A DNA stretch of 57,188 nt, taken from assembly GCF_016863615.1 (NCBI RefSeq), contig NZ_BOPF01000054.1, positions 1 to 57,188 on the forward strand, read 5' to 3'. Positions 13,312-26,972 of this stretch are shown here, piece by piece; position 1 is the first letter of the stretch; each line of letters starts with the position of its first letter. The stretch comes from Virgisporangium aliadipatigenens (GTDB taxonomy: Bacteria; Actinomycetota; Actinomycetes; Mycobacteriales; Micromonosporaceae). Both the position numbers and the translations under genes were made by a program. The notes under the pieces were generated by a model. That model worked only from the letters and a program-made list of their open reading frames with translations. It was not told where the DNA came from and did not search any database.

Positions 13312-15177
13312 GTGAGCGGCGTCTACGGCGCCGTCGGACTGGACGGGCGGCCGCTCGGCGCCAGGGAGCTGGCCGGGCTGCGGGAGATCATCGCGCCGCT
13401 CGGCCCCGATACGGGAGATCCCTGGTCCGGCCGACCGGGGCGGCTCGGCGCCGCGCTGGGCGCCGTCGGCACCGCGCCACTGTCCACTGTGGACGGCGAC
13501 CTGGCGGTCGTCGCGGACGCCGTACTGGAGGACCGCCGCGGGCTCGCCGGTGTGCTCGGGCTGCCGGCGGACGCGCCCGACGCGACGTTCGTGTGCGCGG
13601 CGTACCGACGCTGGGGGCCGGAGTGCGTCGCACACCTGCGCGGCGGGTTCGCGTTCGCCGTCGCCGACGCGCGTCGCGGTGGGGTGTTCATCGCCCGGGA
13701 CCGGCTCGGCATCCGGCCGCTGCACGTGTACCGGACTCCGCGGGAGCTGGTCTTCGCGTCGACGGCGTTCGCGCTCACCGGATGGGACGCCGTCGGGTCC
13801 ACAGTGGACGAGGTGCGCGTCGCCGCGTTCCTGTACGCGACGTTCGAGCCCGAACGCACCTGGGTGGCCGGCGTACGGCCGGTCCCGCCCGCGACGGCGC
13901 TCTGGGTGGACGGCTCGGGTGTGCACACCCGGCGCTACTGGCGGCCGGCACTCGACGCGACGGGGCCGGGGCGCGACCACGCGCAGGCCCTGCGCGAGGC
14001 GTTGGCGGCGGCCGTCGCGGACCGGGCGGAACGGGGCCCCGTCGGGGTGCTCCTGAGCGGCGGGCTGGACAGCGGTTCGGTGGCGGCTCTCGCGGCGGCC
14101 CACGGGATCGTGCGCACCTACACGTCGGTGCCGGCGCCCGACTGGAACGTGCCGGCCGTCGGCAACACCGTGGTCGACGAGAGCGAACTGGTGCGCGACC
14201 TGGCCGCCCGGCATCCCCACCTCCGACCGTCCTTCATGGACAGTCGCGGGATTCCGTTGCTGGACGGGCACGAGGAGTCGTTCGCGGCCGGAGGCACGCC
14301 CGCGCACAACGTGCTCAACGTGACGTGGACGCGGGCGTTCCACGCGCGGGCGGCCGCGGACGGCGTGCGCGTTCTGCTGCACGGCGGGGGCGGCAACTTC
14401 TTCTTCTCCCCGGATGAACCGGGCTGGCTCGCCGCGCTCGTGCGACGGGGCCGCTGGCGTACCGCCGCCCGCGAGGCGGCGCACTGGTCCCGGGTCCGGG
14501 GCATCCCACTGCGCTCCGTCCTGCGCGGCCCGCTGCTGGCCGAACTGGTGCCGGCGGCCGTCCGGAAGCGCCGGCAGGCGGCGTGGACCTCGGCGGCGCT
14601 CCGCGCCGACGGCTGGCTCCGGCCGGAGCGGCGACACCTCATCACCGACGAACGCCTCGGCGCGACGGCCGATTTCGCGTGGTTCGCATCGCCGGTGGTC
14701 CTCGATGCGCTCGCGGCGCAGGCGGAGTTCGCGGCGGCCGAGGAGGCGCGGTGGGGCCTGTGCGTCTCCGATCCCACGCTTGACCTGCGGGTGGTCGAGG
14801 CGGCCTGCGCGCAGCCGGCGTGGCTGCGACGCTCCGCCGGACAGACCCGGGCGGTGTGCCGGGCGGCGACGGCGGGTCTCCTGCCGGACTCGATCCGGCT
14901 CGCGCGCGGCCGCGGGATCCAGGTGGCGGACTGGTCCGACCGGATCGCCGACGCGCGCCCCGAACTCCTGACCGAGGTCGCGGCGGCGCGCGAGAACCCG
15001 CTGGTGAGCGGCCTCGTCGACCTCGACGCGATCGCCGGCACCCTCGCGGAGTGGCCGGGCAGCGAGCCGTCCCCGATCCACCGGGGCGGGCTGCTACGGG
15101 CGCTGCTCGCCTCCCGGTACATCCGCTGGTTCGAGGAACATTCCAGGCCAAAAGCCCGTAATCTTCCGTTCGTCTGA
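13312..15177 (+). CDS. Lasso-peptide-type cyclase (asparagine synthetase B homologue)
   Basis: 621 residues with asparagine synthetase layout: an N-terminal glutaminase-like domain (1-210) and a C-terminal ATP-PPi domain with the PP-loop SGGLDSGSVAAL near residue 249. The catalytic Cys2 of true glutaminases is Ser (MSGVYG), so ammonia release is not expected. That loss is typical of lasso cyclases (McjC family), which adenylate an Asp/Glu side chain of the precursor and close a macrolactam. An AAGGA ribosome site precedes GTG 13312. The precursor gene follows after 20 bp on the same strand. An unrelated RiPP or antibiotic amidotransferase is the alternative. Confidence 0.82.
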   Translation: MSGVYGAVGLDGRPLGARELAGLREIIAPLGPDTGDPWSGRPGRLGAALGAVGTAPLSTVDGDLAVVADAVLEDRRGLAGVLGLPADAPDATFVCAAYRRWGPECVAHLRGGFAFAVADARRGGVFIARDRLGIRPLHVYRTPRELVFASTAFALTGWDAVGSTVDEVRVAAFLYATFEPERTWVAGVRPVPPATALWVDGSGVHTRRYWRPALDATGPGRDHAQALREALAAAVADRAERGPVGVLLSGGLDSGSVAALAAAHGIVRTYTSVPAPDWNVPAVGNTVVDESELVRDLAARHPHLRPSFMDSRGIPLLDGHEESFAAGGTPAHNVLNVTWTRAFHARAAADGVRVLLHGGGGNFFFSPDEPGWLAALVRRGRWRTAAREAAHWSRVRGIPLRSVLRGPLLAELVPAAVRKRRQAAWTSAALRADGWLRPERRHLITDERLGATADFAWFASPVVLDALAAQAEFAAAEEARWGLCVSDPTLDLRVVEAACAQPAWLRRSAGQTRAVCRAATAGLLPDSIRLARGRGIQVADWSDRIADARPELLTEVAAARENPLVSGLVDLDAIAGTLAEWPGSEPSPIHRGGLLRALLASRYIRWFEEHSRPKARNLPFV

Positions 15178-15197
15178 TCATTGAGAAAGGACTTCAC

Positions 15198-15362
15198 ATG
15201 CCTGAGTGTCAGCCGCCCACCGAGACCGGACACCCCGCGGAAGCACCGGCGCGCGCCGGTTGGAGCCCGCCGGAGCTGCGCCGGCTGGTCATCGAGGAGA
15301 CCGCCGCCGGCGCGGGAGTCATGCCGGACGGCCCCATGATGATGATGCCGATGTTCAGCTGA
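15198..15362 (+). CDS. Lasso-peptide precursor candidate (54 aa)
   Basis: A small gene with a clear AGAAAGGA ribosome site 8 bp before ATG. The leader has WSPPELRRLVIEETA. Thr35 would be the conserved lasso Thr at -2, giving the core AGAGVMPDGPMMMMPMFS (residues 37-54). Asp44 is then core position 8 and could close an eight-residue ring with Ala1. The AGxG start recalls paeninodin. The tail holds four consecutive Met, and the last residue is Ser, the residue phosphorylated in paeninodin-type lasso peptides. It sits between the cyclase and a convergent HPr-kinase-like gene. Assignment rests on context and motif, not on a database match. Confidence 0.75.
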   Translation: MPECQPPTETGHPAEAPARAGWSPPELRRLVIEETAAGAGVMPDGPMMMMPMFS

Positions 15363-15371
15363 CGGGTTTCG

Positions 15372-16208
15372 TCAGCCGACGGGGGTCGCCCGTACGTCTC
15401 CGATCAGCGCGGCCACCCGGTCGACGGACCAGGTGGCCGCCGGGCGGGTCAGCACGGCGGTGTCGACCCGCCCGGCGAGGTCGGCCGCCCAGGCGAATAC
15501 CTCCGACGGCCACAGCTTCATCAGCATCGGGAACCGATAGGCGTTGCGCAGCAACAGGTTCACCGCCTCCAGCCGATCCGGCCGGGCGTAGCGCACCTCG
15601 TCCGCCCCCGGGTCGCGCCGCAGCCAGACCACCGAGTCGAGGCGCACCGGCGCGGCCGGCCCGACGGGCAACGAGTACTTCGCATCGCTCTCGCACACCG
15701 GTTCGGCGTCGGACACGTCGACTCCGAGCGCGGCGGCGGTCTCCGGCCACACGTGCAGGGCGCGGCCGAACGGCGTCACCACACCCGCGGCGGAAACCGG
15801 TGACACGTCGTCGGTCACCAGCTCGTGGCCGGCCGCCCGCAGCGCCAACACCGTCGTGGACTTGCCGGCACCGCTGTCGCCCGTCACGGCGATGCCCCGC
15901 CCGTGTGCCCGGACGGTCGAGGCGTGCAGCGCGAACTCCCGTCGCTGCCCCAGCAGCAGGGCCACCACCGTTCCATGGAGAAGGCTCCGGAGCGCGAACG
16001 GGTCACCGCCCGGGTAGGCCTCGACGGTGATCCGCGCGCCCTCCTCGACCAGAAACCGCGCGACCCCCGCGACGTCGAAGCGCGCGACCGACGCGTCGGC
16101 GCACAGCCGCGTGCCGTCCGGCGCCGTCCACTCGAACGTCGGCCGCCGCGGACCGCCGCCCGCGCGGCCCGGCCGCACCTCGGCTCCCATCAGATGATGT
16201 ACGCGCAT
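15372..16208 (-). CDS. HPr-kinase-like lasso-peptide kinase
   Basis: 278 residues. An intact P-loop GDSGAGKST lies near residues 107-116, followed by LVTDDVSPV, which matches the acidic metal-binding segment of HPr kinase/phosphorylase. Relatives in lasso-peptide clusters (for example PadeK for paeninodin) phosphorylate the C-terminal Ser of the precursor, and the precursor here ends in Ser. The gene converges on the precursor with 9 bp between stops and is divergent from the next gene across about 50 bp. It lacks the N-terminal domain of housekeeping HPr kinase. Function is inferred from family plus context. Confidence 0.78.
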   Translation of the reverse strand: MRVHHLMGAEVRPGRAGGGPRRPTFEWTAPDGTRLCADASVARFDVAGVARFLVEEGARITVEAYPGGDPFALRSLLHGTVVALLLGQRREFALHASTVRAHGRGIAVTGDSGAGKSTTVLALRAAGHELVTDDVSPVSAAGVVTPFGRALHVWPETAAALGVDVSDAEPVCESDAKYSLPVGPAAPVRLDSVVWLRRDPGADEVRYARPDRLEAVNLLLRNAYRFPMLMKLWPSEVFAWAADLAGRVDTAVLTRPAATWSVDRVAALIGDVRATPVG

Positions 16209-16260
16209 GACGTGAGGATATTCGCATTAAGATCTAATTTGTCCGTTCCAAGGAGGTGTC

Positions 16261-17070
16261 GTGGATCTGGCCTGGCCGCCCGCCTGGCGACTGGCCCCGG
16301 TGCCCGAACGACTCCCCGACCCGGTGGCCAGCACCGGTGTCGTGACCGCGACGGCCGACCGGGTGCTGTGCCGGATCCCGTCCGTCGGCCGCTTCATGGC
16401 CCGCGCACGGGGGCCGATCGACGTTCGCCCCGAACGCCGCGCCACCGACGCCGACGTGCGCTGCTTCCTCGGCGTGGCCGGCACCGCCCGGTGGCTGCTG
16501 GGCGGCGTGCCGACGCTGCGCGGCGCGGCCGTCGCGCTGAACGGCGCGGGCGTCGTCATCTGCGGGCCCGCCGCCGGCGGCACGTCGGCGCTCACCGCCG
16601 CACTCGCCCTGCGCGGGCACGGCGTTCTCGCGGATCGGGTCGCGCTGGTCACCGGCGACCCGCCGCTGCTGCGCCGCACCGACGACGAGGTGCAGCTCTG
16701 GCCCGACATGGCCGACGCCCTGGACATCCCGTCGACGGTCGGCCGGGTCGTGCGGCCGGCGCTGGCGAAGCGCGCGTACCGGCTCGGACCGGAGCCGTCC
16801 GCGGTGCCGCTGCGCGCCGTGGTGCTCCTGCCGGGCACCGAACCCGGGCCGGTCCGACTGACCACTGTGGACGGTGCGGAGGAGCGTTCCGCCGAACTGC
16901 ACGGACGCGAGTGGCACCGCCGGCTCGTGGCGCCGCTGCTCGGAAAGCCGGCCCGGCACACGTGGGCGGCGTCGGTCGCCGGTGCGGCGCGCGTGCTGCG
17001 GTTCAGCGGCCGACTGCACGACCTCCACCCGACGGCGCTCGCCGCGAAGGTCGAAGAAGCGTTCCCGTGA
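16261..17070 (+). CDS. HPr-kinase-like protein with degenerate nucleotide site
   Basis: 269 residues, similar in layout to the kinase gene next to it. The P-loop position reads GPAAGGTSA, without the Lys that binds phosphate, and the acidic pair LVTDD is replaced by LADRV. The downstream segment DEVQLWPDMADALDI parallels RALHVWPETAAALGV of the active-looking kinase. This suggests a catalytically dead paralogue that could act as scaffold, peptide-binding subunit or regulator. A near-perfect ribosome site, AAGGAGGTG, lies just before GTG 16261. Its stop overlaps the sulfotransferase start (GTGA), so the two are coupled. Confidence 0.65.
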   Translation: MDLAWPPAWRLAPVPERLPDPVASTGVVTATADRVLCRIPSVGRFMARARGPIDVRPERRATDADVRCFLGVAGTARWLLGGVPTLRGAAVALNGAGVVICGPAAGGTSALTAALALRGHGVLADRVALVTGDPPLLRRTDDEVQLWPDMADALDIPSTVGRVVRPALAKRAYRLGPEPSAVPLRAVVLLPGTEPGPVRLTTVDGAEERSAELHGREWHRRLVAPLLGKPARHTWAASVAGAARVLRFSGRLHDLHPTALAAKVEEAFP

Positions 17071-17888
17071 CGGGGATTCTCTGGCTGGCCTCGTATCCGA
17101 AGTCGGGGAACACGTGGCTGCGCGCGGTGCTCACGGCGGCCCGCAGCGGCGCCGACGTCGACCTCGACGCGCTCGCCGGAGCGGCCGTCGCGGCGTCCCG
17201 GGACGTGCTGGAGGACCTGCTGGGCGTGCCGACCACCGACCTGACCAGCGCGGAGATCGACCGGCTGCGCCCGGGCGCGGACGACGTGGCCGCCGCGGCG
17301 GCGCGTTCGGAACCGCTCCTGCGCAAGATCCACGACGCGTTCGGGGCGGAGCCGGTCATCTCCGTCGCCGCCGCGCACGCCGCCGTCTACCTGGTGCGTG
17401 ACCCCCGCGACGTGGCCGTGTCGATGGCGCACCACTCCGGGGTGTCGTTCGAGGAGGCGGTGCGGCGGTTGTGCGTTCCGCACGCGACGGCGCCGTTGCA
17501 CCCGGCCCGGCCGGGCAAGCAGGTGCGCCAGTACTTCGGGACCTGGTCGGAGCATGTGCTCGGCTGGGTCGACCAGCGGCGGTTCCCGGTGTACGTGCTG
17601 CGCTACGAGGACGCGCTGGCCGATCCGGTGCCGGCGTTCGCGCCCGCGGTGCGGCTCGCCGGGTTCGACCTCACCGACGAGGCCCTGGCCGCCGCCGTCC
17701 GCCGGGCCGACTTTGCCGTCCTGGCCGATCTCGAGTCCCGCTCCGGTTTCCGGGAACGTCCACCGCACGCCGAGCGCTTCTTCCGCCGTGGCCGGGCAGG
17801 CGGCTGGCGCGACGAGTTGCCCGCGGCGCTGGCCGAGCGCATCGTCGATCGGCACGGCGAGGTGATGACGCGCTTCGGGTACCTGTGA
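17067..17888 (+). CDS. PAPS-dependent sulfotransferase
   Basis: A 273-residue cytosolic sulfotransferase that would move sulfate from 3'-phosphoadenylyl sulfate to a hydroxyl or amine. The 5'-phosphosulfate loop YPKSGNTW is at residues 10-17. The 3'-phosphate motif YLVRDPRDVAVSM is near residue 108. The C-terminal segment FFRRGRAGGWRDEL matches the terminal PAPS-contact motif of the family. It overlaps the upstream degenerate kinase gene by 4 bp and lies in the lasso locus, so the natural substrate may be the peptide, although a small metabolite cannot be excluded. Confidence 0.85.
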   Translation: MTGILWLASYPKSGNTWLRAVLTAARSGADVDLDALAGAAVAASRDVLEDLLGVPTTDLTSAEIDRLRPGADDVAAAAARSEPLLRKIHDAFGAEPVISVAAAHAAVYLVRDPRDVAVSMAHHSGVSFEEAVRRLCVPHATAPLHPARPGKQVRQYFGTWSEHVLGWVDQRRFPVYVLRYEDALADPVPAFAPAVRLAGFDLTDEALAAAVRRADFAVLADLESRSGFRERPPHAERFFRRGRAGGWRDELPAALAERIVDRHGEVMTRFGYL

Positions 17889-19745: not shown

Positions 19746-20549
19746 ATGGCGGAGCCCGTGGAGGAGCTGGAACGGCGCATCGAGCGCCTGCGTTCGGCCG
19801 TCCGCCACGCCGTCACCACGGGTGACCGCGCCACCGCGCGCACCCTCCGGGCCGAGTTGCGACGGGCCGAGGACGCCTGGGAGGAGGCCCTCGACGACCT
19901 CGCCGACCAGGCACCCGCCGCGCCGCTGCCACCCCGGCAGCGGGCCGTCCCGGGACTCCTGCCCCTGCGTGAGCAGGTGCACACCGCACTGTCGTTACTC
20001 TCCGTTCCGGCTGCGCCGCGGCTCGTCGTCCAGGTGCACCACGCGTTCTTCGGGGAGGACGTGCCGAGTGCCAAGCTGACCAGCCTGCGGCGGGACGAGG
20101 AACGGTCGTTCCGGTCGGCGCCGTTCGCGCGTCCGTACTACCTGTGCGCGGCGCTGACGGCCGACCGGCTCGCCCCGGCCCGCGGCCTGCTCGCCGTCTC
20201 GACCTGGCCGCTCGAGCACCGCATCGTCGGCCCCCTCAGCCCGCGCGTCGACTTCCTCACGGCGGCGGTACGGGTGGCCGAGCACGCCGAGCGGCTGTCC
20301 AAGGTGGACGGTGGCGTGGCCCGGCTGCTGTGGATGTTCGGGGCCAACATCCCGGGCGCCGCCAGTGGCATCGGGACCGCCGCGCCGGCCGCGGTGATCC
20401 GGGCGGCCCGCGCCGAGCTGGATTCGCACACGGGCGTCGACCGTTCGCACCGCACGGCCGCCGCCGCCCGCGCCCGCGCGCATCTCGACGACGTCGGACA
20501 GCTCTTCGGCACCCAGCTCCGCGCCGTCCGTTCGAGAACAGGCACCTGA
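19746..20549 (+). CDS. Coiled-coil protein of unknown function, first gene of nuclease-helicase operon
   Basis: 267 residues, unrecognised. Residues 2-55 form a charged helix (VEELERRIERLRSAV, then ARTLRAELRRAEDAWEEAL) likely to be a coiled coil. The remainder is a globular domain with VVQVHHAFFGEDVPSAKLTSL, LLAVSTWPLEHRIVGPL and a Ser/Thr-His-rich C-terminal helix (HRTAAAARARAHLDDVG). There is no signal peptide or membrane segment, so it is cytosolic. It precedes the nuclease by 38 bp and probably belongs to the same transcript. It could be an adaptor or sensor subunit. Confidence 0.7.
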   Translation: MAEPVEELERRIERLRSAVRHAVTTGDRATARTLRAELRRAEDAWEEALDDLADQAPAAPLPPRQRAVPGLLPLREQVHTALSLLSVPAAPRLVVQVHHAFFGEDVPSAKLTSLRRDEERSFRSAPFARPYYLCAALTADRLAPARGLLAVSTWPLEHRIVGPLSPRVDFLTAAVRVAEHAERLSKVDGGVARLLWMFGANIPGAASGIGTAAPAAVIRAARAELDSHTGVDRSHRTAAAARARAHLDDVGQLFGTQLRAVRSRTGT

Positions 20550-20587
20550 CGCTTCCCCACGTCTTCCCCCCGCGAAGGACTCCCACC

Positions 20588-21718
20588 GTGCAGAACGCTC
20601 CCGTGACCAGCACCGAAGCGCACCTGGACCGGCTCCGTGGCGACGTCGCGCCGGTCAACCACAACGCCCGCACCATCGCCGCCCTGACCGGCAATCCCGG
20701 GTGCCGCCGCCGCGCCGTTCTCGACGCCGCCGGCGTCGACAAGAAGGCGATGTCCGTTCACATCGGACACCCCGTGCCCTTCGGCCAGTCGACCTTCGCC
20801 ATCACCCGGGGGAACGCCTTCGAGGCGCAGGTCAAGGCGAACGGCTGCGCGGAGCTGCTGACCATGCTGCGCGAACGGCTCGGCCTCGACATCGCCGAGG
20901 TCGCATACAACGACCTGGAGGAGGCGGGCGGCAACGGCAGCCGCGAAGTGCGCCACGCCCTCGCCCGGCGGATGATCGACGGCGCCGCCGCCGGGGTCGA
21001 GGGCGCCGGCACGCTCTTCGACCACCCGCTGCTCGGCCTGCCGATCGGCGGCCGCACGGTGTATCTGGAGCCCGACCTGATCGCCTTCCAGGTCGGCGCG
21101 CAGTTCCACATCATCGAGATCAAGTCGTTCCCGGTCATCGACGGGCAGGCCGACGGGGGCAAGGTGGCGGCCGCCGCCGTGCAGTCCGCCGTGTACGTGC
21201 TGGCCCTGCGTCGCCTGTTCGAGGAACTCGGGCACGACCCGCAGCGCGTGTCGCACAATGTGATCCTCGTGTGCCCCGAAAACTTCTCCAACCGGCCGGT
21301 CGCCACGCTCCTGGACGTGCGCCGCCAGTTGACCGTCCTCAAGCGACAGTTGTCCCGGCTGCGCCGCGTCGACGAACTGCTCGCCACGCTCGACCCCGGG
21401 CTGACGTTCGACCTGGGGGTACGGGACGGGACGGCGACCCGGCCGGCCGGCGAGGTCGTCGCGGCGCTCGGCGAGGTGGAGGCGCGCTACTCCCCGGACT
21501 GTCTCGACATGTGCGAGCTCTCCTACTTCTGCCGGGCCGAGGCGCGGGGCACCACGCACGCGCTCGGCCGCACCGTGCGCGAGGAACTGGGCGGCATCGA
21601 GTTCGTCGACACGGCGTTGCGCCTCGCCGAAGGCAGATTGGCTCCCACGGTGGAGCTGGCGGAGACGGCCCACGCCCTGCGCACCGCCCTGCGGATGCGC
21701 ACGGAGTGCCTGTCTTGA
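20588..21718 (+). CDS. PD-(D/E)XK nuclease, Cas4/RecB-like with Fe-S cysteines
   Basis: 376 residues. The core VYLEPDLIAF...FHIIEIKSFPV gives catalytic Asp163, Glu177 and Lys179. Downstream, AVQSAVYVLALRR supplies the RecB-type motif Gln199-x3-Tyr203. One Cys near the N-terminus (Cys39, NPGCRRRA) and three near the C-terminus (Cys305, Cys309, Cys315 in CLDMCELSYFC) match the split four-cysteine Fe-S clamp of Cas4 and AddB nucleases. The expected activity is DNA cleavage or end resection. GTG 20588 has a GAAGGA ribosome site. Its stop overlaps the TTG start of the next gene. No cas genes are nearby, so it is not a CRISPR adaptation protein here. Confidence 0.8.
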   Translation: MQNAPVTSTEAHLDRLRGDVAPVNHNARTIAALTGNPGCRRRAVLDAAGVDKKAMSVHIGHPVPFGQSTFAITRGNAFEAQVKANGCAELLTMLRERLGLDIAEVAYNDLEEAGGNGSREVRHALARRMIDGAAAGVEGAGTLFDHPLLGLPIGGRTVYLEPDLIAFQVGAQFHIIEIKSFPVIDGQADGGKVAAAAVQSAVYVLALRRLFEELGHDPQRVSHNVILVCPENFSNRPVATLLDVRRQLTVLKRQLSRLRRVDELLATLDPGLTFDLGVRDGTATRPAGEVVAALGEVEARYSPDCLDMCELSYFCRAEARGTTHALGRTVREELGGIEFVDTALRLAEGRLAPTVELAETAHALRTALRMRTECLS

Positions 21719-23199
21719 CGGCACTGACCGCCCTCGCCCGGGCCATCGCCGTCCGGGAGGAACGGGCCCAGCCGCTCACCACCGTGCGCCACGTCCACAT
21801 CGGAGCGCGGCCGCTGGTCTTCGTGCCGCTGGCGCTGGCCGGCGAGGCAAACGCCCCGCTGGCCGCCCTGGTCGGCGACGATCGCGCCGCGCCGCACCTG
21901 CTCGTGGTGCCGCAGCCGCGAAACCGCGCGCAGCGCTTCGCGTTCGCCGCCGAGCTGGGGCACCTGGTGCTCGACTACCTGAGGAGCTTCACGCACTTCC
22001 GCGAGGACGTGCCGATCAACCGCGGTCGCGAGGTGCGGCAACGGTTCTCCGACGCGCCGCAGCTCATCGTGCCGAATCCGGCCGGGGTGGCGTTCACCCG
22101 GCTGCTGGGCCGCTCGACGCGGCTGCGCCGCACCGACGGGCCGTACGCGGTGGATCCCGTGGTGCCGCTGCTCGGGAGGTGGCTGACGTTCCTCGCCGAA
22201 CGCGCCGAGCATCCCGGCTCGTCGCTCATGGTGGCGATGACCCGGGCGCTGTCGATGCACTGGGCCACCGGGCAGAGTTCCACCGAGGACGCCAATCTCG
22301 CCGCGCTGCTCGGCTGGATCGCGCCGCCCGAGGGGCGTTCCCCCGTGGAAGCCGCGGCCGACGCGGAGGACGCCGATCTGTGGCCGCCGGCCGGACCGGC
22401 CACCGATCCGACGTTCGACAACGAGATCCTGTCGCCGGCGATCGCCCGGCACGAGCGCGACCCGCGCCACTTCGACGGACTGCGCAAGGTCCTGAACTCC
22501 CAGCTGGAACCGACCTGGCACCTGATGTGGCGCGGCATCGACGTTCTCGGTGGACTGTCGCCGGGCGCCTCCGTGGCCGAACGCTGGGCCGACGACCGCG
22601 ACAGCTTCACCAACTACGTCACCTACCTGGCGGGCGACAACCCGCTGCCGCAGGCCCGCCGGGACAGCGCGACCGCCGCCGCCCGACGACTGTCCACAAT
22701 GGAACGGGCCCAGAACGTCTACGACGTGCAGCGCGCCATGGACGATCCGCTCGTGATGGCCGAATACCGGCTCGGCGGGGAGGCCTTCGCCGGCACGGTC
22801 ACGTACGCCGCGCCGGACCGGATCGACGCCAGCAGCGGCCGGCGCAAGCTGCGCCCGCAGATCCTCGTGCACACCGACGACCCGCTGCGCCTGACGCCGG
22901 GCGCCACGGTCAGCGACCGCTCCCGGCCCAAGCAGAAGGCCGTGATCGTGCGGGTGTCCACACTGGACAGCGGCGGCTACGAGGTACAGCTCGAACTGAG
23001 CGGCGGCATGGGAAACTCGCTCGTCGCGCCGCCCGGCAGCGTGCCCGCCGTCGGCGAACGCCTCACCTACAGCGCGCTCGACGCGGCGTTCCGGCAGCCG
23101 GACCGGTTCCCCGCCAACGAGGAGACGCCGTGGACGCACGGCGGCCCGCCCCAGCAGTACGTGCCCACGAACGACGACGCCGTGGAGGACTGGTCATGA
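21715..23199 (+). CDS. Unknown protein with degenerate ImmA/IrrE-like motif
   Basis: 494 residues. Residues 71-90, RAQRFAFAAELGHLVLDYL, closely follow the ImmA/IrrE zinc-peptidase motif (RFxxAHELGHxxL). The first His of HExxH is Ala79; Glu80 and His83 remain, so classical zinc hydrolysis is doubtful. The rest (TWHLMWRGIDVLGGL, YLAGDNPLPQARRDS, then beta-rich C-terminal sequence) matches nothing I recognise. The TTG start at 21715 overlaps the nuclease stop (TTGA) with GGAG at 21703, so the two proteins are co-translated. It may sense or dock partners for the nuclease and helicase. No transfer signature is visible. Confidence 0.65.
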   Translation: MTALTALARAIAVREERAQPLTTVRHVHIGARPLVFVPLALAGEANAPLAALVGDDRAAPHLLVVPQPRNRAQRFAFAAELGHLVLDYLRSFTHFREDVPINRGREVRQRFSDAPQLIVPNPAGVAFTRLLGRSTRLRRTDGPYAVDPVVPLLGRWLTFLAERAEHPGSSLMVAMTRALSMHWATGQSSTEDANLAALLGWIAPPEGRSPVEAAADAEDADLWPPAGPATDPTFDNEILSPAIARHERDPRHFDGLRKVLNSQLEPTWHLMWRGIDVLGGLSPGASVAERWADDRDSFTNYVTYLAGDNPLPQARRDSATAAARRLSTMERAQNVYDVQRAMDDPLVMAEYRLGGEAFAGTVTYAAPDRIDASSGRRKLRPQILVHTDDPLRLTPGATVSDRSRPKQKAVIVRVSTLDSGGYEVQLELSGGMGNSLVAPPGSVPAVGERLTYSALDAAFRQPDRFPANEETPWTHGGPPQQYVPTNDDAVEDWS

Positions 23200-23208
23200 G
23201 CGCGCGGC

Positions 23209-23296
23209 GGGACGGCGCGGTGTCGCCTGGACTGAGGAGTGCAGGGAGCGTAGCGACCGGAATGACGAGGGAAGGCGACACCGCGGGCGCCGTCCC
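23209..23296. repeat. Long imperfect inverted repeat between operon genes
   Basis: CGCGGTGTCGCCT (23216-23228) is exactly complementary to AGGCGACACCGCG (23273-23285). The stem extends outward with GGGACGG (23209-23215) and CCGTCCC (23290-23296), interrupted by four bases. The 44-bp loop carries the GCAGGGAGCGTAGCGACC type of sequence seen at other intergenic REP-like spots in the window. It occupies the only real gap (118 bp) in this operon and could be an RNA-stability or attenuation hairpin. Confidence 0.75.
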
Positions 23297-23317
23297 GACG
23301 CTTGCGCGGGGGACACT

Positions 23318-24610
23318 GTGACCGTGGACGTCTTTCCCGCGGTGATGCAGGACTTCCTGCACGGCGACCGCCCCGGCGTGGTCGTCGACTCACCGCCCGG
23401 CGCCGGCAAGTCCACTCTCGTCAAGCGGGTCGCCACCCACCTGGCGGGGGCCGGGGAGCCGCTCGCCATCGTCGCCCAGACCAACGAACAGGTCGACGAC
23501 CTCGTCGCCGGCATCGCCGCCGCGGCCCCCGACTCGCAGGTCGGCCGCCTCTCCCGGGACGGCTACCTGGCCAGCGCCCGCGTCGCCGGCCATCGCAACG
23601 TCGTGGTCGACAGCAAGATGGGCAACCTCACCGGTTCGGCCGTCGTCATCAGCACCGCCGCCAAGTGGGCCACGGTCACCGACGGCAGCTGGCCGTGGGC
23701 CATCGTCGACGAGGCGTACCAGATGCGCTCCGACGCCCTGCTGCGCATCGCGGGGCGCTTCGAGCGCACGCTGTTCGTGGGCGATCCGGGGCAGCTGGAC
23801 CCGTTCTCCGTGGTGGAGACCGAACGGTGGGCCGGCCTGTCGTGGGACCCGCAGCAGAGCGCGATGGCGGTCCTCCTCGCGCACAACCCGTCCATAAAGC
23901 CGCATCGCCTGGAGGTCTCCTGGCGGCTTCCGGCCACGGCCGCCCCGGTCGTCTCGGAGGCCTTCTACCCCTACACGCCCTTCACCTCCGGGACGGGGCC
24001 CGAGGACCGCTCGCTCTTCTTCCGCACGCGGGCGTTCGGGAAGTCCACTGTGGACTACTCGCTGGAGACCGCCGCCGCGACCGGCTGGGCCCTGCACGAG
24101 CTGCCCCGCCGCCAGACGCTGCGCACCGACGCCGAGGTGGCCCGCGCGTGCGCGCAGTTGGCCACGCGGCTGCTGGAACGCAGCGCCGTGGCCGTCTCCG
24201 AGAAGGCACCCGACGGGGCACCGGTGACCGCCGACCGGATCGCCATCGGGACCGCGCACCGGGACCAGGCGGCGGCGGTGCGCGCGCACCTGCCGGCCGA
24301 CACGGGCATCACCGTCGACACCGCCAACCGGCTGCAGGGGCGCGAGTACGACGTGACGATCGTGTGGCATCCGCTGTCCGGGCGGCGCGACGCGACCGCG
24401 TTCCACCTGGAGTCGGGGCGGCTGTGCGTGCTGACGTCGCGGCACCGGCACGCGTGCGTGGTGGTGGCCCGGGCCGGCATCCCGGACCTGCTCGACGCGC
24501 ACCCTTCGACCGGCCGCATGTATCTCAACGAGGCGGTGAAGTTCCCGGACGGCTGGGAGGCCAACCAGGCGGTGCTGGCCCACCTCTCCGAGCATCGCGT
24601 CCCCGCCTGA
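23318..24610 (+). CDS. Superfamily 1 helicase / P-loop ATPase
   Basis: 430 residues. Motif I is SPPGAGKST (25-33), motif II is AIVDEAYQ (about 129-136), motif III is FVGDPGQLDPF (about 153-163), and motifs V-VI include TANRLQGREYDVTIVW (about 333-348) and LTSRHRHACVVVAR (about 371-384). This is a compact SF1 (Upf1/RecD-like) helicase core without an N-terminal DNA-binding extension. It should translocate on or unwind nucleic acid and could work with the nuclease two genes upstream. A GTCCACTGTGGAC palindrome lies at 24043. The start is GTG 23318; ribosome site weak. Confidence 0.82.
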   Translation: MTVDVFPAVMQDFLHGDRPGVVVDSPPGAGKSTLVKRVATHLAGAGEPLAIVAQTNEQVDDLVAGIAAAAPDSQVGRLSRDGYLASARVAGHRNVVVDSKMGNLTGSAVVISTAAKWATVTDGSWPWAIVDEAYQMRSDALLRIAGRFERTLFVGDPGQLDPFSVVETERWAGLSWDPQQSAMAVLLAHNPSIKPHRLEVSWRLPATAAPVVSEAFYPYTPFTSGTGPEDRSLFFRTRAFGKSTVDYSLETAAATGWALHELPRRQTLRTDAEVARACAQLATRLLERSAVAVSEKAPDGAPVTADRIAIGTAHRDQAAAVRAHLPADTGITVDTANRLQGREYDVTIVWHPLSGRRDATAFHLESGRLCVLTSRHRHACVVVARAGIPDLLDAHPSTGRMYLNEAVKFPDGWEANQAVLAHLSEHRVPA

Positions 24611-25348: not shown

Positions 25349-26122
25349 TCAGACGGCGCGCGGGGCGCCGAACCGCTCGGCGAAGGCGTTGTACACGGGA
25401 GTCCCGCTGACATGATCCAACACGGCGAAAACCACGTGATCGAACCCACCCAGGACGGTGGCGAACGCCTCAGCAACCACAGCCGGATCGTTACGGAACA
25501 CGCCGCATCCCCACGCCCCGAGCACGAGCCGCCGCTCCCCGTGCGCGGCGGCGACGTCGAGCACCCGGCGCGCGCGGCGCTCCAACACCGCCGGCACCGT
25601 CGCCGCGTTCGCGGGCTGGCTGCGCAGCACGGCGCCGTTGTTGGGCGCGGCGGCCGTCAGGAACGACACCTCGTACGCGGGGTCGATCAGCCGCCCCTTG
25701 TCGTCGCGGAACACCGGCACGCGCGGCGAGTAGATGACCCGGTCGCTGTAGCGCAGATCCTTCTCGGCGCGATGGTGCTCGTAGAACTCGAACACCGAAC
25801 TCAGGCACGGGTACAGCCCCGACGCCCGCGCGATGCTCTCCTCCTGCGCCTGCGCCCCGCCGAGGAACCCGCCACCGGGGTTGCGCGCGGAGGCGAAGTT
25901 GAGCGCGGCCACCGGCCCGTCCCCGGCCAGCCGGCGCGCGGCGACAAGCGTGCTCTCCCGCGTCACCTCGACCACCGGAACGTCCACAGTGGACCGCGCC
26001 GGCAGCGGGTCGTCGGGGAGGTAGAGGCGGGTGCCGGCGACGGCCGCGTCGGTAGCGGGATACCGGCCGGACTCCAGCAGCTCCAGCGTTTCCTTGGCGA
26101 TCGCCCGCAATCTCCCGCTCAT
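25349..26122 (-). CDS. Macrodomain protein, bacterial PARG type (TIGR02452-like)
   Basis: 257 residues. NFASARNPGGGFLGGAQAQEES carries the GGG-x(6-8)-QEE signature of bacterial poly(ADP-ribose) glycohydrolases, including the two catalytic-type Glu. The N-terminal helix (RAIAKETLELLESGRY) and the C-terminal macrodomain core (RLVLGAWGCGVFRNDP) fit the TIGR02452 group. The likely role is removing ADP-ribose polymers or other ADP-ribose adducts. The frame is open further upstream, but ATG 26122 (MSGRLRAI) follows a GAGG ribosome site and matches the family start. A GTCCACAGTGGAC palindrome lies at 25982. 150 bp of non-coding sequence lies downstream. Confidence 0.87.
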   Translation of the reverse strand: MSGRLRAIAKETLELLESGRYPATDAAVAGTRLYLPDDPLPARSTVDVPVVEVTRESTLVAARRLAGDGPVAALNFASARNPGGGFLGGAQAQEESIARASGLYPCLSSVFEFYEHHRAEKDLRYSDRVIYSPRVPVFRDDKGRLIDPAYEVSFLTAAAPNNGAVLRSQPANAATVPAVLERRARRVLDVAAAHGERRLVLGAWGCGVFRNDPAVVAEAFATVLGGFDHVVFAVLDHVSGTPVYNAFAERFGAPRAV

Positions 26123-26255
26123 GTCGCCGCCTCGCTTCGCTCCCCGGCGCCCTGAGACGCGAGCACACAGTGCCCCATGATTCGCTCCCGCAAGCGTCCG
26201 CTCATGCGTGATGCTTAGCAGGATCACCGCGCGGACGGCCACCGCAATAGACCCA

Positions 26256-26292
26256 CCGGAGGCCGGTCCCTGAGGCGAGGACCGGCCTCCGG
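26256..26292 (-). terminator. Strong 14-bp hairpin after the secreted nuclease gene
   Basis: CCGGAGGCCGGTCC (26256-26269), a 9-base loop, then the exact complement GGACCGGCCTCCGG (26279-26292). It lies 27 bp past the stop of the minus-strand HNH gene. There is no T-run, as is common for actinobacterial terminators. Confidence 0.75.
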
Positions 26293-26318
26293 CAGCGGGG
26301 AACTACGGGAGAAAAGGT

Positions 26319-26972
26319 CTAGTAGAGCGTCACCGTGATCGTGACGTTCGTGCAGGAGGCCGCGTAGCCGGTCAGCGCCGCCTTCTCCGCGGAGTCGACG
26401 GTGAGCGCCCACCGCTTCTTCACGGCCACCCACTCCTGGACGTACCGGCAGGTGGCGCCGCTGTTCGTGGGCATCCACTCGGCCGGGTCCCGGTCGCTCT
26501 TGGACTGGTTGACGCTGTCCTTGACGGCGACGAGGGCGCGGCTCTCGGTGAGGTCGTTCGCGTACGCCTGGCGCTTGGCGGTGGTCCAGCTGCGCGCGCC
26601 GGAGTCCCACGCCTCGGCCAACGCCACCATGTGGTCGATGTCCAGGTCGGAGGGGAGCGTGTAGTACGTGTTGTTGTAGTAGGAGTACCAGCGGCCGCCG
26701 GTGAGGGAGCAGCCGGAGCCGACCGTGGGCCTGGTGGTGGCCTCGGCGATGAGGACCTCGTAGCGGGTGTTGCAGCCGTCGCCGTCGGCGTCGATCCAGT
26801 GCGGGAAGAGGTCCCGGTTGTAGCCGGTGCGCACCTCGGTGGCGACGGTGAGCGAGGAGACCGCCGTGCGCAGCGGCGCGGAGTAGGTGGCGGCCTGCGC
26901 CGGGGCCGCCCAGGCGAACGTCGCCAGCAGCCCGCCGACCAGGGCCGCGATGGATAGCCGGGTCGGTGCCAT
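26319..26972 (-). CDS. Secreted HNH-family nuclease (DUF1524/GmrSD C-terminal type)
   Basis: 217 residues with a Sec signal peptide (MAPTRLSIAALVGGLLATF, cleavage near AQA-ATYS). The mature part has DADGDGCNTRYEVLIAE, the metal-binding core LDIDHMVALAEAWDSGA, and a later segment with NQSKSDRDPAEWMP, matching the secreted DUF1524/HNH proteins common in actinomycetes. It is expected to cut extracellular DNA for nutrient recovery or competition. Four cysteines (for example GCSLTGG, ATCRYV, ASCTNV) could form disulfides. It is alone on its strand between a terminator hairpin and the divergent SARP gene. Confidence 0.88.
   Translation of the reverse strand: MAPTRLSIAALVGGLLATFAWAAPAQAATYSAPLRTAVSSLTVATEVRTGYNRDLFPHWIDADGDGCNTRYEVLIAEATTRPTVGSGCSLTGGRWYSYYNNTYYTLPSDLDIDHMVALAEAWDSGARSWTTAKRQAYANDLTESRALVAVKDSVNQSKSDRDPAEWMPTNSGATCRYVQEWVAVKKRWALTVDSAEKAALTGYAASCTNVTITVTLY

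Follow-up and report, generated by a model that had tools for sequence, protein, structure and literature searches.

In the stretch of Virgisporangium aliadipatigenens DNA analysed here (57,188 nucleotides of contig NZ_BOPF01000054.1, hereafter the window), four consecutive genes of the + strand, A, B, C and D (19746-24610), probably encode a Dna2-like helicase-nuclease for DNA ends that is split into three chains, the products of B, C and D (BCD). This reading is based on the gene order B-C-D, which is the order of the modules in Dna2, and on DNA2 as the top match of D among solved chains. In some relatives the operon adjoins an Mre11-Rad50 pair of its own, from which a second and so far unrecognised route for processing broken or foreign DNA ends may be supposed in some soil bacteria. 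The genes and their features are as follows (aa, amino acids; AF2, AlphaFold2).

19746..20549, + strand: gene A, 267 aa, an accessory gene, often the first in the operon
20588..21718, + strand: gene B, 376 aa, predicted RecB/Cas4-type PD-(D/E)XK nuclease; GTG start at 20588 (GTG at 20603 also possible)
20702..20704, + strand: Cys39 of B, first staple cysteine (NPGC), invariant in 33/33 and 42/42 members
21068..21124, + strand: catalytic stretch of B in the aligned members, from EPD (161-163) to E177-x-K179
21182..21196, + strand: QxxxY motif of B (Q199, Y203), from the alignment
21500..21532, + strand: Cys305, Cys309 and Cys315 of B, C-terminal staple cysteines, invariant
21715..23199, + strand: gene C, 494 aa, TTG start; GTG at 21706 would give 497 aa, the basis of our residue numbering
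22666..23073, + strand: residues 321-456 of C (497-aa numbering), candidate stalk and 1B barrel in the AF2 model
23318..24610, + strand: gene D, 430 aa, SF1 helicase of the UPF1/Dna2-like type with a RecA1-RecA2 core
23390..23416, + strand: motif I of D, SPPGAGKST, residues 25-33, from the alignment
23708..23722, + strand: motif II of D, DEAYQ, from the alignment
23780..23806, + strand: motif III of D, GDPGQLDPF, from the alignment
24320..24454, + strand: stretch of D that includes motifs V (TANRLQGREYD) and VI (SRHR), mostly invariant in 29 members

A preliminary description of this DNA had recognised four co-directional genes, two of them co-translated, and the open frames of the window agree with it: A and B are separated by 38 nt, C and D by 118 nt, and the stop of B and the start of C share 4 nt (TTGA, 21715-21718). 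It had also held that a separate nuclease and helicase with a third protein match no known system, which is in line with our searches of the curated libraries (Pfam, PADLOC, NCBIfam, PHROGs): A had no hit at E ≤0.01, B and C had none at E ≤10, and only D could be named. The PADLOC 2.0 models contain no family for A, B or C, and D matches only helicases among them (best MkoA, 1e-9).

As to D, its designation as an SF1 helicase is well founded in its motifs and in profile matches to DNA2 and UPF1. The Pfam domains AAA_11, AAA_12 and AAA_30 were found in 29/29 D members (E ≤1), and in a comparison of the D profile with the PDB the top match was DNA2 (E 1.6e-12), SMUBP-2 and UPF1 being next. The phage collection gave no match to D at E 1e-6. 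In Dna2, the nuclease and the helicase are separated by a beta barrel that sits on a stalk made of two long helices (PMC4716839). Motif I (Walker A) of D is preceded by just 24 residues, so that D is without the stalk and the beta-barrel of Dna2. Considering that the helicase relatives include UPF1, SMUBP-2 and Sen1, that UPF1/Sen1-like helicases also act on RNA, and that the genes are near-core in one genus (see below), one could suppose a housekeeping operon with a job other than at DNA ends, for example, in RNA or R-loop processing. We find this very improbable, as D finds DNA2 first among solved structures, and the iron-staple nuclease partner and the dedicated SbcCD discussed below are DNA-end enzymes.

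Judging by its sequence, B is an iron-staple PD-(D/E)XK nuclease of the Cas4/AddB/Dna2 type, with a predicted Fe-S cluster and predicted activity. The iron staple of Dna2, Cas4 and AddB consists of one N-terminal and three C-terminal cysteines (PMC7430649). The Cas4/RecB-like nuclease with four cysteines of the preliminary description is recovered: Cys39, Cys305, Cys309 and Cys315 are invariant in 33/33 and 42/42 aligned B proteins, the window included, and E161-P162-D163, E177-x-K179 and Q199-x3-Y203 match the RecB-family motifs. Pfam PF12705 was detected in 6/33 members (best E 0.00098) and had no match in B of the window itself; B had no match in the phage collection at E 1e-5. The catalytic trio D/E163, D/E177, K179 is intact in 29/33 and 41/42 members, the exceptions being L063, L066, L067, L069 and L112, as well as in all 11 core copies examined from the genus g75 (inferred to be Streptomyces). 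Catalytically altered B proteins were also found in a further 29 rows (L160, L175, L176, L068 and L070), and all of these keep the four cysteines. As the exceptions occupy at least three places on the tree (L063; L066/L067/L069; L160/L175/L176), catalysis must have been lost more than once with the clamp kept. A lack of catalytic residues in the nuclease homologues, which the preliminary description had named as counting against its reading, is therefore seen in some lineages of B, most members being intact. L160, L175 and L176 are accessory copies that have L-I-R instead of E-I-K and no linked SbcCD.

C belongs, by its sequence, to a new family with no Pfam entry: Pfam gave scattered weak matches on 32 members, none of them in C of the window and none common to more than two. 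The TTG start yields the N-terminus typical of the family (consensus MSxLTALARA). The AF2 model of C, built with 46 sequences (pLDDT 91.0, pTM 0.87), begins with an alpha/beta part, is helical in the middle and continues with long helices reaching residue 356 and six strands within residues 360-456. Comparison of this model with the PDB (Foldseek) placed Sen1 at ranks 1 (E 0.0079, probability 0.99) and 2 (E 0.021, probability 0.95). Sen1 is an Upf1-like helicase that has a stalk and a barrel, and helicases of the Upf1 family show this assembly as Dna2 does (PMC4716839, PMC5452015). The model is suggestive of the C-terminal part of C being the stalk and beta-barrel that D is missing, and we propose from it that C also carries extra novel N-terminal domains. 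C is likely to be the missing piece of the helicase, the evidence for it as a partner being stronger than the Sen1 match. A search of a viral structure library with C returned nothing useful, and TIGR00376 (IGHMBP2), considered as a source of a stalk-barrel sequence, was found in 0/149 genomes of the phylum at E 1e-60.

The preliminary description had assigned an IrrE-like motif to the third protein, and this assignment does not stand. The sequence AAELGH of C in the window, which alone resembles HExxH, has no first His, the Glu and the second His vary, and HExxH is unconserved in the family; Pfam M78 (PF06114) was found in 0/32 C members at E ≤10, and a profile comparison with an M78 protein of the same genome gave nothing. 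An ImmA/IrrE-type metallopeptidase operon, for which that short motif would speak, is refuted at the sequence level and has practically no chance of being true.

The relationship of C and D is also seen on plasmids. Besides three plasmid records with BCD, distant D homologues (E ≤1e-6) occur on 55 plasmid records, among them 27 of Rhodococcus, seven of Mycobacterium and four of Mycolicibacterium, these being mostly about 33% identical. Five such actinobacterial loci were opened, and no B or A was found in them by profile; in four of the five (L214-L217) D is directly preceded by a gene for a C homologue, which indicates that C and D are able to stay paired without B. In hhalign, C matched the homologues of L214/L215/L217 at 92.9% probability (E 3.7e-7, C residues 114-461); the single-sequence hmmsearch values for the homologues of L214-L217 were E 1e-7, 1.7e-5 and 0.0012, and 0.17 for L217. 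Plain tblastn of C on plasmids (E 0.01) found only the three BCD records, hence the distant homologues are visible to profiles only. In L214 (4065-9167), L215 (3722-9164) and L217 (4024-9164), from Rhodococcus, Mycobacterium and Xylanimonas, the module consists of a MoxR/AAA ATPase, a VWA-like (DUF2201) protein, a small protein and the C and D homologues, B being absent; on a Euzebya plasmid (L216, 4352-9188) a DNA cytosine methyltransferase, a small protein, the C homologue and the D homologue stand in a row.

These plasmid pairs, with no B within about 8 kb and with MoxR-type and VWA genes in 3/4 of cases, might mean that the C-D helicase is the functional core and that B is a swappable partner, in many cases acting as a structural Fe-S clamp and not as a nuclease. 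The loss of catalytic residues in B of L063, L066-L070 and L160/L175/L176, all with the four cysteines kept, would fit. Such an arrangement is nevertheless quite unlikely, given the intact B site in 29/33 and 41/42 sampled members and in all 11 core copies examined from g75.

Gene A was compared with the PDB by Foldseek, and no match at E ≤0.001 was obtained. Its AF2 model (pLDDT 89.2, pTM 0.71) starts with an N-terminal helical hairpin (residues 5-55), followed by a domain at about residues 74-151, which from the order of helices and strands we read as winged-helix-like, and by C-terminal helices. The hairpin alone resembles chains of ClpC/MecA complexes in the PDB comparison.

The association of the four genes was studied in two sets of loci. 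B was found in 41/101 relatives of the window (37/92 good genomes), and 40 loci fetched around B matches contained B in 40 cases, C in 40, D in 33 and A in 17. A scan with the C profile of a collection of 84,980 species gave at least 566 encoding stretches among 595 pattern matches (stretches, which may represent fewer genes), and the best 80 loci were examined further. In these 80 loci B was present in 79 (the one miss being due to a contig end), D in 57 and A in 52; all four genes were found in 51, contiguous and co-directional in 47. The recurrence of B in relatives and of the genes across the fetched loci implies that the four-gene association is not due to chance. Adjacent genes overlap by 4 nt in 31/51 (A-B), 24/77 (B-C) and 21/55 (C-D) cases. 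The fetched stretches measure from about 3.7 to 21.5 kb, so a missing neighbour is not always informative, and the sets of 40 and 80 loci overlap, as follows from the identical C of L035/L071, L062/L109 and L032/L115. Left out of the gene lists were a D gene interrupted by an in-frame stop (L034), two B longer than 430 aa and one A shorter than 240 aa. The alignments comprised 32/38 (A1), 31/40 (A2), 28/32 (A3) and 16/16 (A4) listed members, and the redundancy-filtered ones 45/46 C (A5), 41/42 B (A7) and 32/32 A (A6), the window being added to each.

D follows B also at the level of whole genomes: it was present in 9/10 genomes chosen from the 41 with B and in 0/11 chosen from the 60 without B. 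The lone genome with B in which D was missed (G026) has a completeness of 80% and a contig that breaks off in C. The displaced D of six genomes is 8 to 63 kb away from C. Of 296 genomes sampled evenly across the phylum, 13 contained D (E 1e-60) and 11 contained C (E 1e-10), and in the two extra genomes diverged B and C were found beside D, so that all 13 have C. In g75, C occurs in 114/121 genomes (112/118 good ones), mostly as a single copy. Six core loci of this genus (L151, L153, L155, L184-L186) have common neighbours and no A; their shared upstream neighbour we take to be histidine-phosphatase-like. A gene of a 108-134-aa protein follows D in them (L151 11544-11912; equivalents in L153, L155, L184, L185 and L186), and the protein of L151 has no Pfam match. 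A universal and syntenic distribution, named in the preliminary description as counting against its reading, is hence approached in g75, whereas elsewhere the presence is patchy. In some g75 genomes (G438, G478) accessory copies are situated near chromosome ends. On the tree of B and C, which like the SbcD tree described below is a quick one with long-branch warnings, the two copies of genome G001 fall in separate clades, and the window sits by two Dactylosporangium copies with identity of at most 65%. These two placements make horizontal transfer of the operon likely.

In 17/146 labelled loci (window included among the latter), SbcD and SbcC were found in the same stretch, divergently upstream in 10 and co-directionally downstream in seven. 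On the SbcD tree, 16/17 linked SbcD form one clade apart from 15 housekeeping SbcD; the SbcCD of L098, whose SbcD clusters with the housekeeping ones, was removed from the linked set. By this phylogeny, the SbcCD (Mre11-Rad50) beside the operon in 16 loci is a dedicated copy. Genomes with operon-linked SbcD have a second SbcD elsewhere in 11/11 cases tested (among these, G411 has only part of the linked SbcD, and G438 has three SbcD matches, with a copy at both ends), and genomes without the linkage have a single SbcD in 4/4, the window genome included. AAA_23/SMC and SbcC_Walker_B domains were found in both of the linked SbcC that were scanned, and those complete linked SbcC that were inspected carry a hook-like CxxC (CPVC, CPIC, CSVC); the reading of L182 contains stops. 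Mapped on the B and C tree, the SbcCD linkage changes five times (L098 scored as linked; L180, with a partial sbcD, as unlinked). Among 13 accessory copies (11 of g75 and two on plasmids), SbcD adjoins 10 and is not adjacent to L160, L175 and L176, which form one clade with a dead B site.

The same accessory copies supply the arguments for a mobile anti-plasmid or anti-phage defence, in which B-C-D, with or without SbcCD, would sense and degrade invading DNA. The operon has sbcCD on one side and a Wadjet cluster on the other in the Streptomyces plasmid NZ_CP108489.1, and another Streptomyces plasmid, NZ_CP027023.1, has the same arrangement with the sbcCD annotation broken up. Wadjet JetABC is directly downstream in 3/13 accessory copies (L165, L166, L181), JetA and JetC being confirmed by PADLOC models in one of the three; a JetC match of 27% identity in L130, on the other strand and several kb off, was not counted as Wadjet. 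The linked SbcC is distantly similar to the mad3 and LmuB models. Patchiness in the relatives of the window, extra copies on plasmids and near chromosome ends, and the flank genes of the window (GNAT, PARG, HNH and sulfotransferase), which are found beside the operon in 0/147 other loci (≥40% identity, E ≤1e-10), point in the same direction. We consider such defence rather unlikely overall, though a serious rival for the mobile copies: C is nearly constant in g75, mostly once per genome and with neighbours common to the six loci; no PADLOC family exists for A, B or C; the three Wadjet cases group closely on the tree and may therefore be one event; and no known defence island is formed by those genes around the window operon that were scanned or read (PADLOC was not applied to the flanks). 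On the whole, the evidence leans to DNA-end processing, given the Dna2-like architecture and the dedicated SbcCD, with clear Wadjet neighbours in three loci only, and DNA-end resection is the likeliest role.

The split Dna2-like machine would act as follows. B, C and D would form one complex with the modules ordered as in Dna2, and the stalk and barrel of C would dock on D and complete a UPF1-like helicase. D would be a 5'-to-3' SF1B motor, and a single-stranded 5' end would be threaded and cut by B ahead of the motor, as in Dna2. A may load or regulate the complex. In most genomes the complex would process DNA ends alone, and elsewhere the dedicated SbcCD could open blocked or hairpin ends for BCD.

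Several observations weigh against this scheme. The Sen1 match of C is weak (rmsd 9.3, TM 0.14 by query, the aligned part of C being unreported), and the C profile showed no similarity to the stretch before motif I of one TM0106-type helicase. The B catalytic site is dead in several lineages. In a comparison of B with the RecB-type pair of its own genome the motifs were in register in hhalign, at E 0.043 and a probability of 1.2%, and another alignment gave a lower score (E 0.33). Locus L218 has a distant D with no C homologue in the stretch. The sole SbcD of the window genome is unlinked, so SbcCD is not needed there. The genome has a pair of PF12705 matches about 2.7 kb apart in long open frames, which we read as AdnAB-like; a resection machine is then not missing from this genome. 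AdnAB has been called the main helicase-nuclease of Streptomyces (PMC5869714), and where it is present BCD would be a second, specialised machine.

As for the surroundings of the operon in the window, on its 5' side the opposite strand carries a DUF6596 sigma factor gene and a second gene, presumably YCII-like. The sigma factor is found near B and C in 11/147 loci and the YCII gene in 5/147 (Micromonospora loci), probably by coincidence for an abundant family. The gene 3' of the operon, which we take to be GNAT-like, is accompanied by a microbial PARG and a GmrSD_C protein (25349-26972), a pair not seen next to the operon in 147 other loci. The statement of the preliminary description that restriction genes are lacking holds inside the operon, the GmrSD_C protein and the PARG lying downstream of it. 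The GC content of the operon equals that of the remaining window, so no recent import is visible. No clean empty site was found, the left and right flanks being matched in G001 and G002 on contigs other than those bearing the operon, in assemblies that are fragmented and 7-10% contaminated. An intergenic repeat of about 92 bp (26104-26206) has 43 more matches elsewhere in the window genome (82-94% identity) and one weaker match in G001, and thus represents a dispersed repeat family. At 13489-17888 there is a possible peptide-type cluster, with genes that we assume to be asparagine-synthase-like and sulfotransferase-like.

If the proposed reading is true, the function of bacterial Dna2-like enzymes, the working of a UPF1-type barrel as a subunit of its own and the handling of ends by linear replicons could all be studied in a genetically tractable system; a function is thereby also proposed for the C family, which has no Pfam entry. 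Tentatively, Actinomycetota may even have a further end-processing design: a three-chain Dna2 with the helicase barrel as a family of its own (C), with its own Mre11-Rad50 in part of the lineage, near-core in Streptomyces beside AdnAB and also carried by plasmids, and with a portable C-D pair recruited to MoxR-VWA on Rhodococcus and Mycobacterium plasmids. This broader picture we regard as somewhat doubtful. We found no description of a split Dna2-like system in the open-access literature, most subscription papers being outside this scope.

Among the known systems, AdnAB, AddAB and RecBCD are likewise helicase-nucleases of DNA ends, and their motors are of the UvrD type; the window genome has the separate PF12705 pair. 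HerA and NurA belong to families other than those of D and B. The archaeal HerA-NurA-Mre11-Rad50 operon, as far as described in PMC4351679, also encodes a helicase and a nuclease that carry out 5'-3' end resection along with Mre11-Rad50; Mre11-Rad50 is part of that operon, in contrast to the window operon, whose genome has one unlinked SbcD, and is found beside BCD in 16 other loci. Cas4-like nucleases beside or fused to a helicase are known too (PMC5704561), but the helicases of the pairs described there are UvrD-type or COG1205 (SF2) ones, with no UPF1-like motor or C-type partner among those pairs. The D profile also matches (E 2.8e-18) the UPF1-like helicase domain of a RecB-like putative nuclease of the TM0106 family (L219); unlike the split operon, it is a single chain of 1135 aa with an RNase_H_2 domain.

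The closest counterparts are Dna2 and its bacterial relative. Eukaryotic Dna2 (5eaw, 5eax, 5ean) combines, like the operon, an iron-staple nuclease and a UPF1-like SF1B helicase in the same order of modules, but it is a single chain with an N-terminal OB fold (PMC4716839), whereas the operon encodes three chains in which no OB fold was identified, and C would have extra novel domains. Dna2 was previously considered eukaryotic and archaeal. Bad is the bacterial DNA2-like helicase-nuclease of Geobacillus: it has 1245 aa, a four-Cys nuclease, an SF1B helicase and a central domain of unknown structure, it is rare and sporadic, lies beside a methyltransferase in Geobacilli, its role is unknown, and a second class of it occurs in Mycobacteria and Rhodococcus (PMC7430649). 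The joining of nuclease and helicase in one polypeptide, a trait of Dna2 and Bad, is not found in the window, where the genes are separate, and in the loci holding both B and D the two are matched separately, in many cases at a distance from each other or on different strands; the barrel, the other common trait, would be supplied by C according to its model. By length, the single chain of Bad (1245 aa) compares with 376 + 494 + 430 = 1300 aa in the split operon. While single-chain Bad is rare, the split version is widespread in Actinomycetota, where it is accompanied by A, belongs to the near-core of one large genus and has a dedicated SbcCD beside it in some loci.

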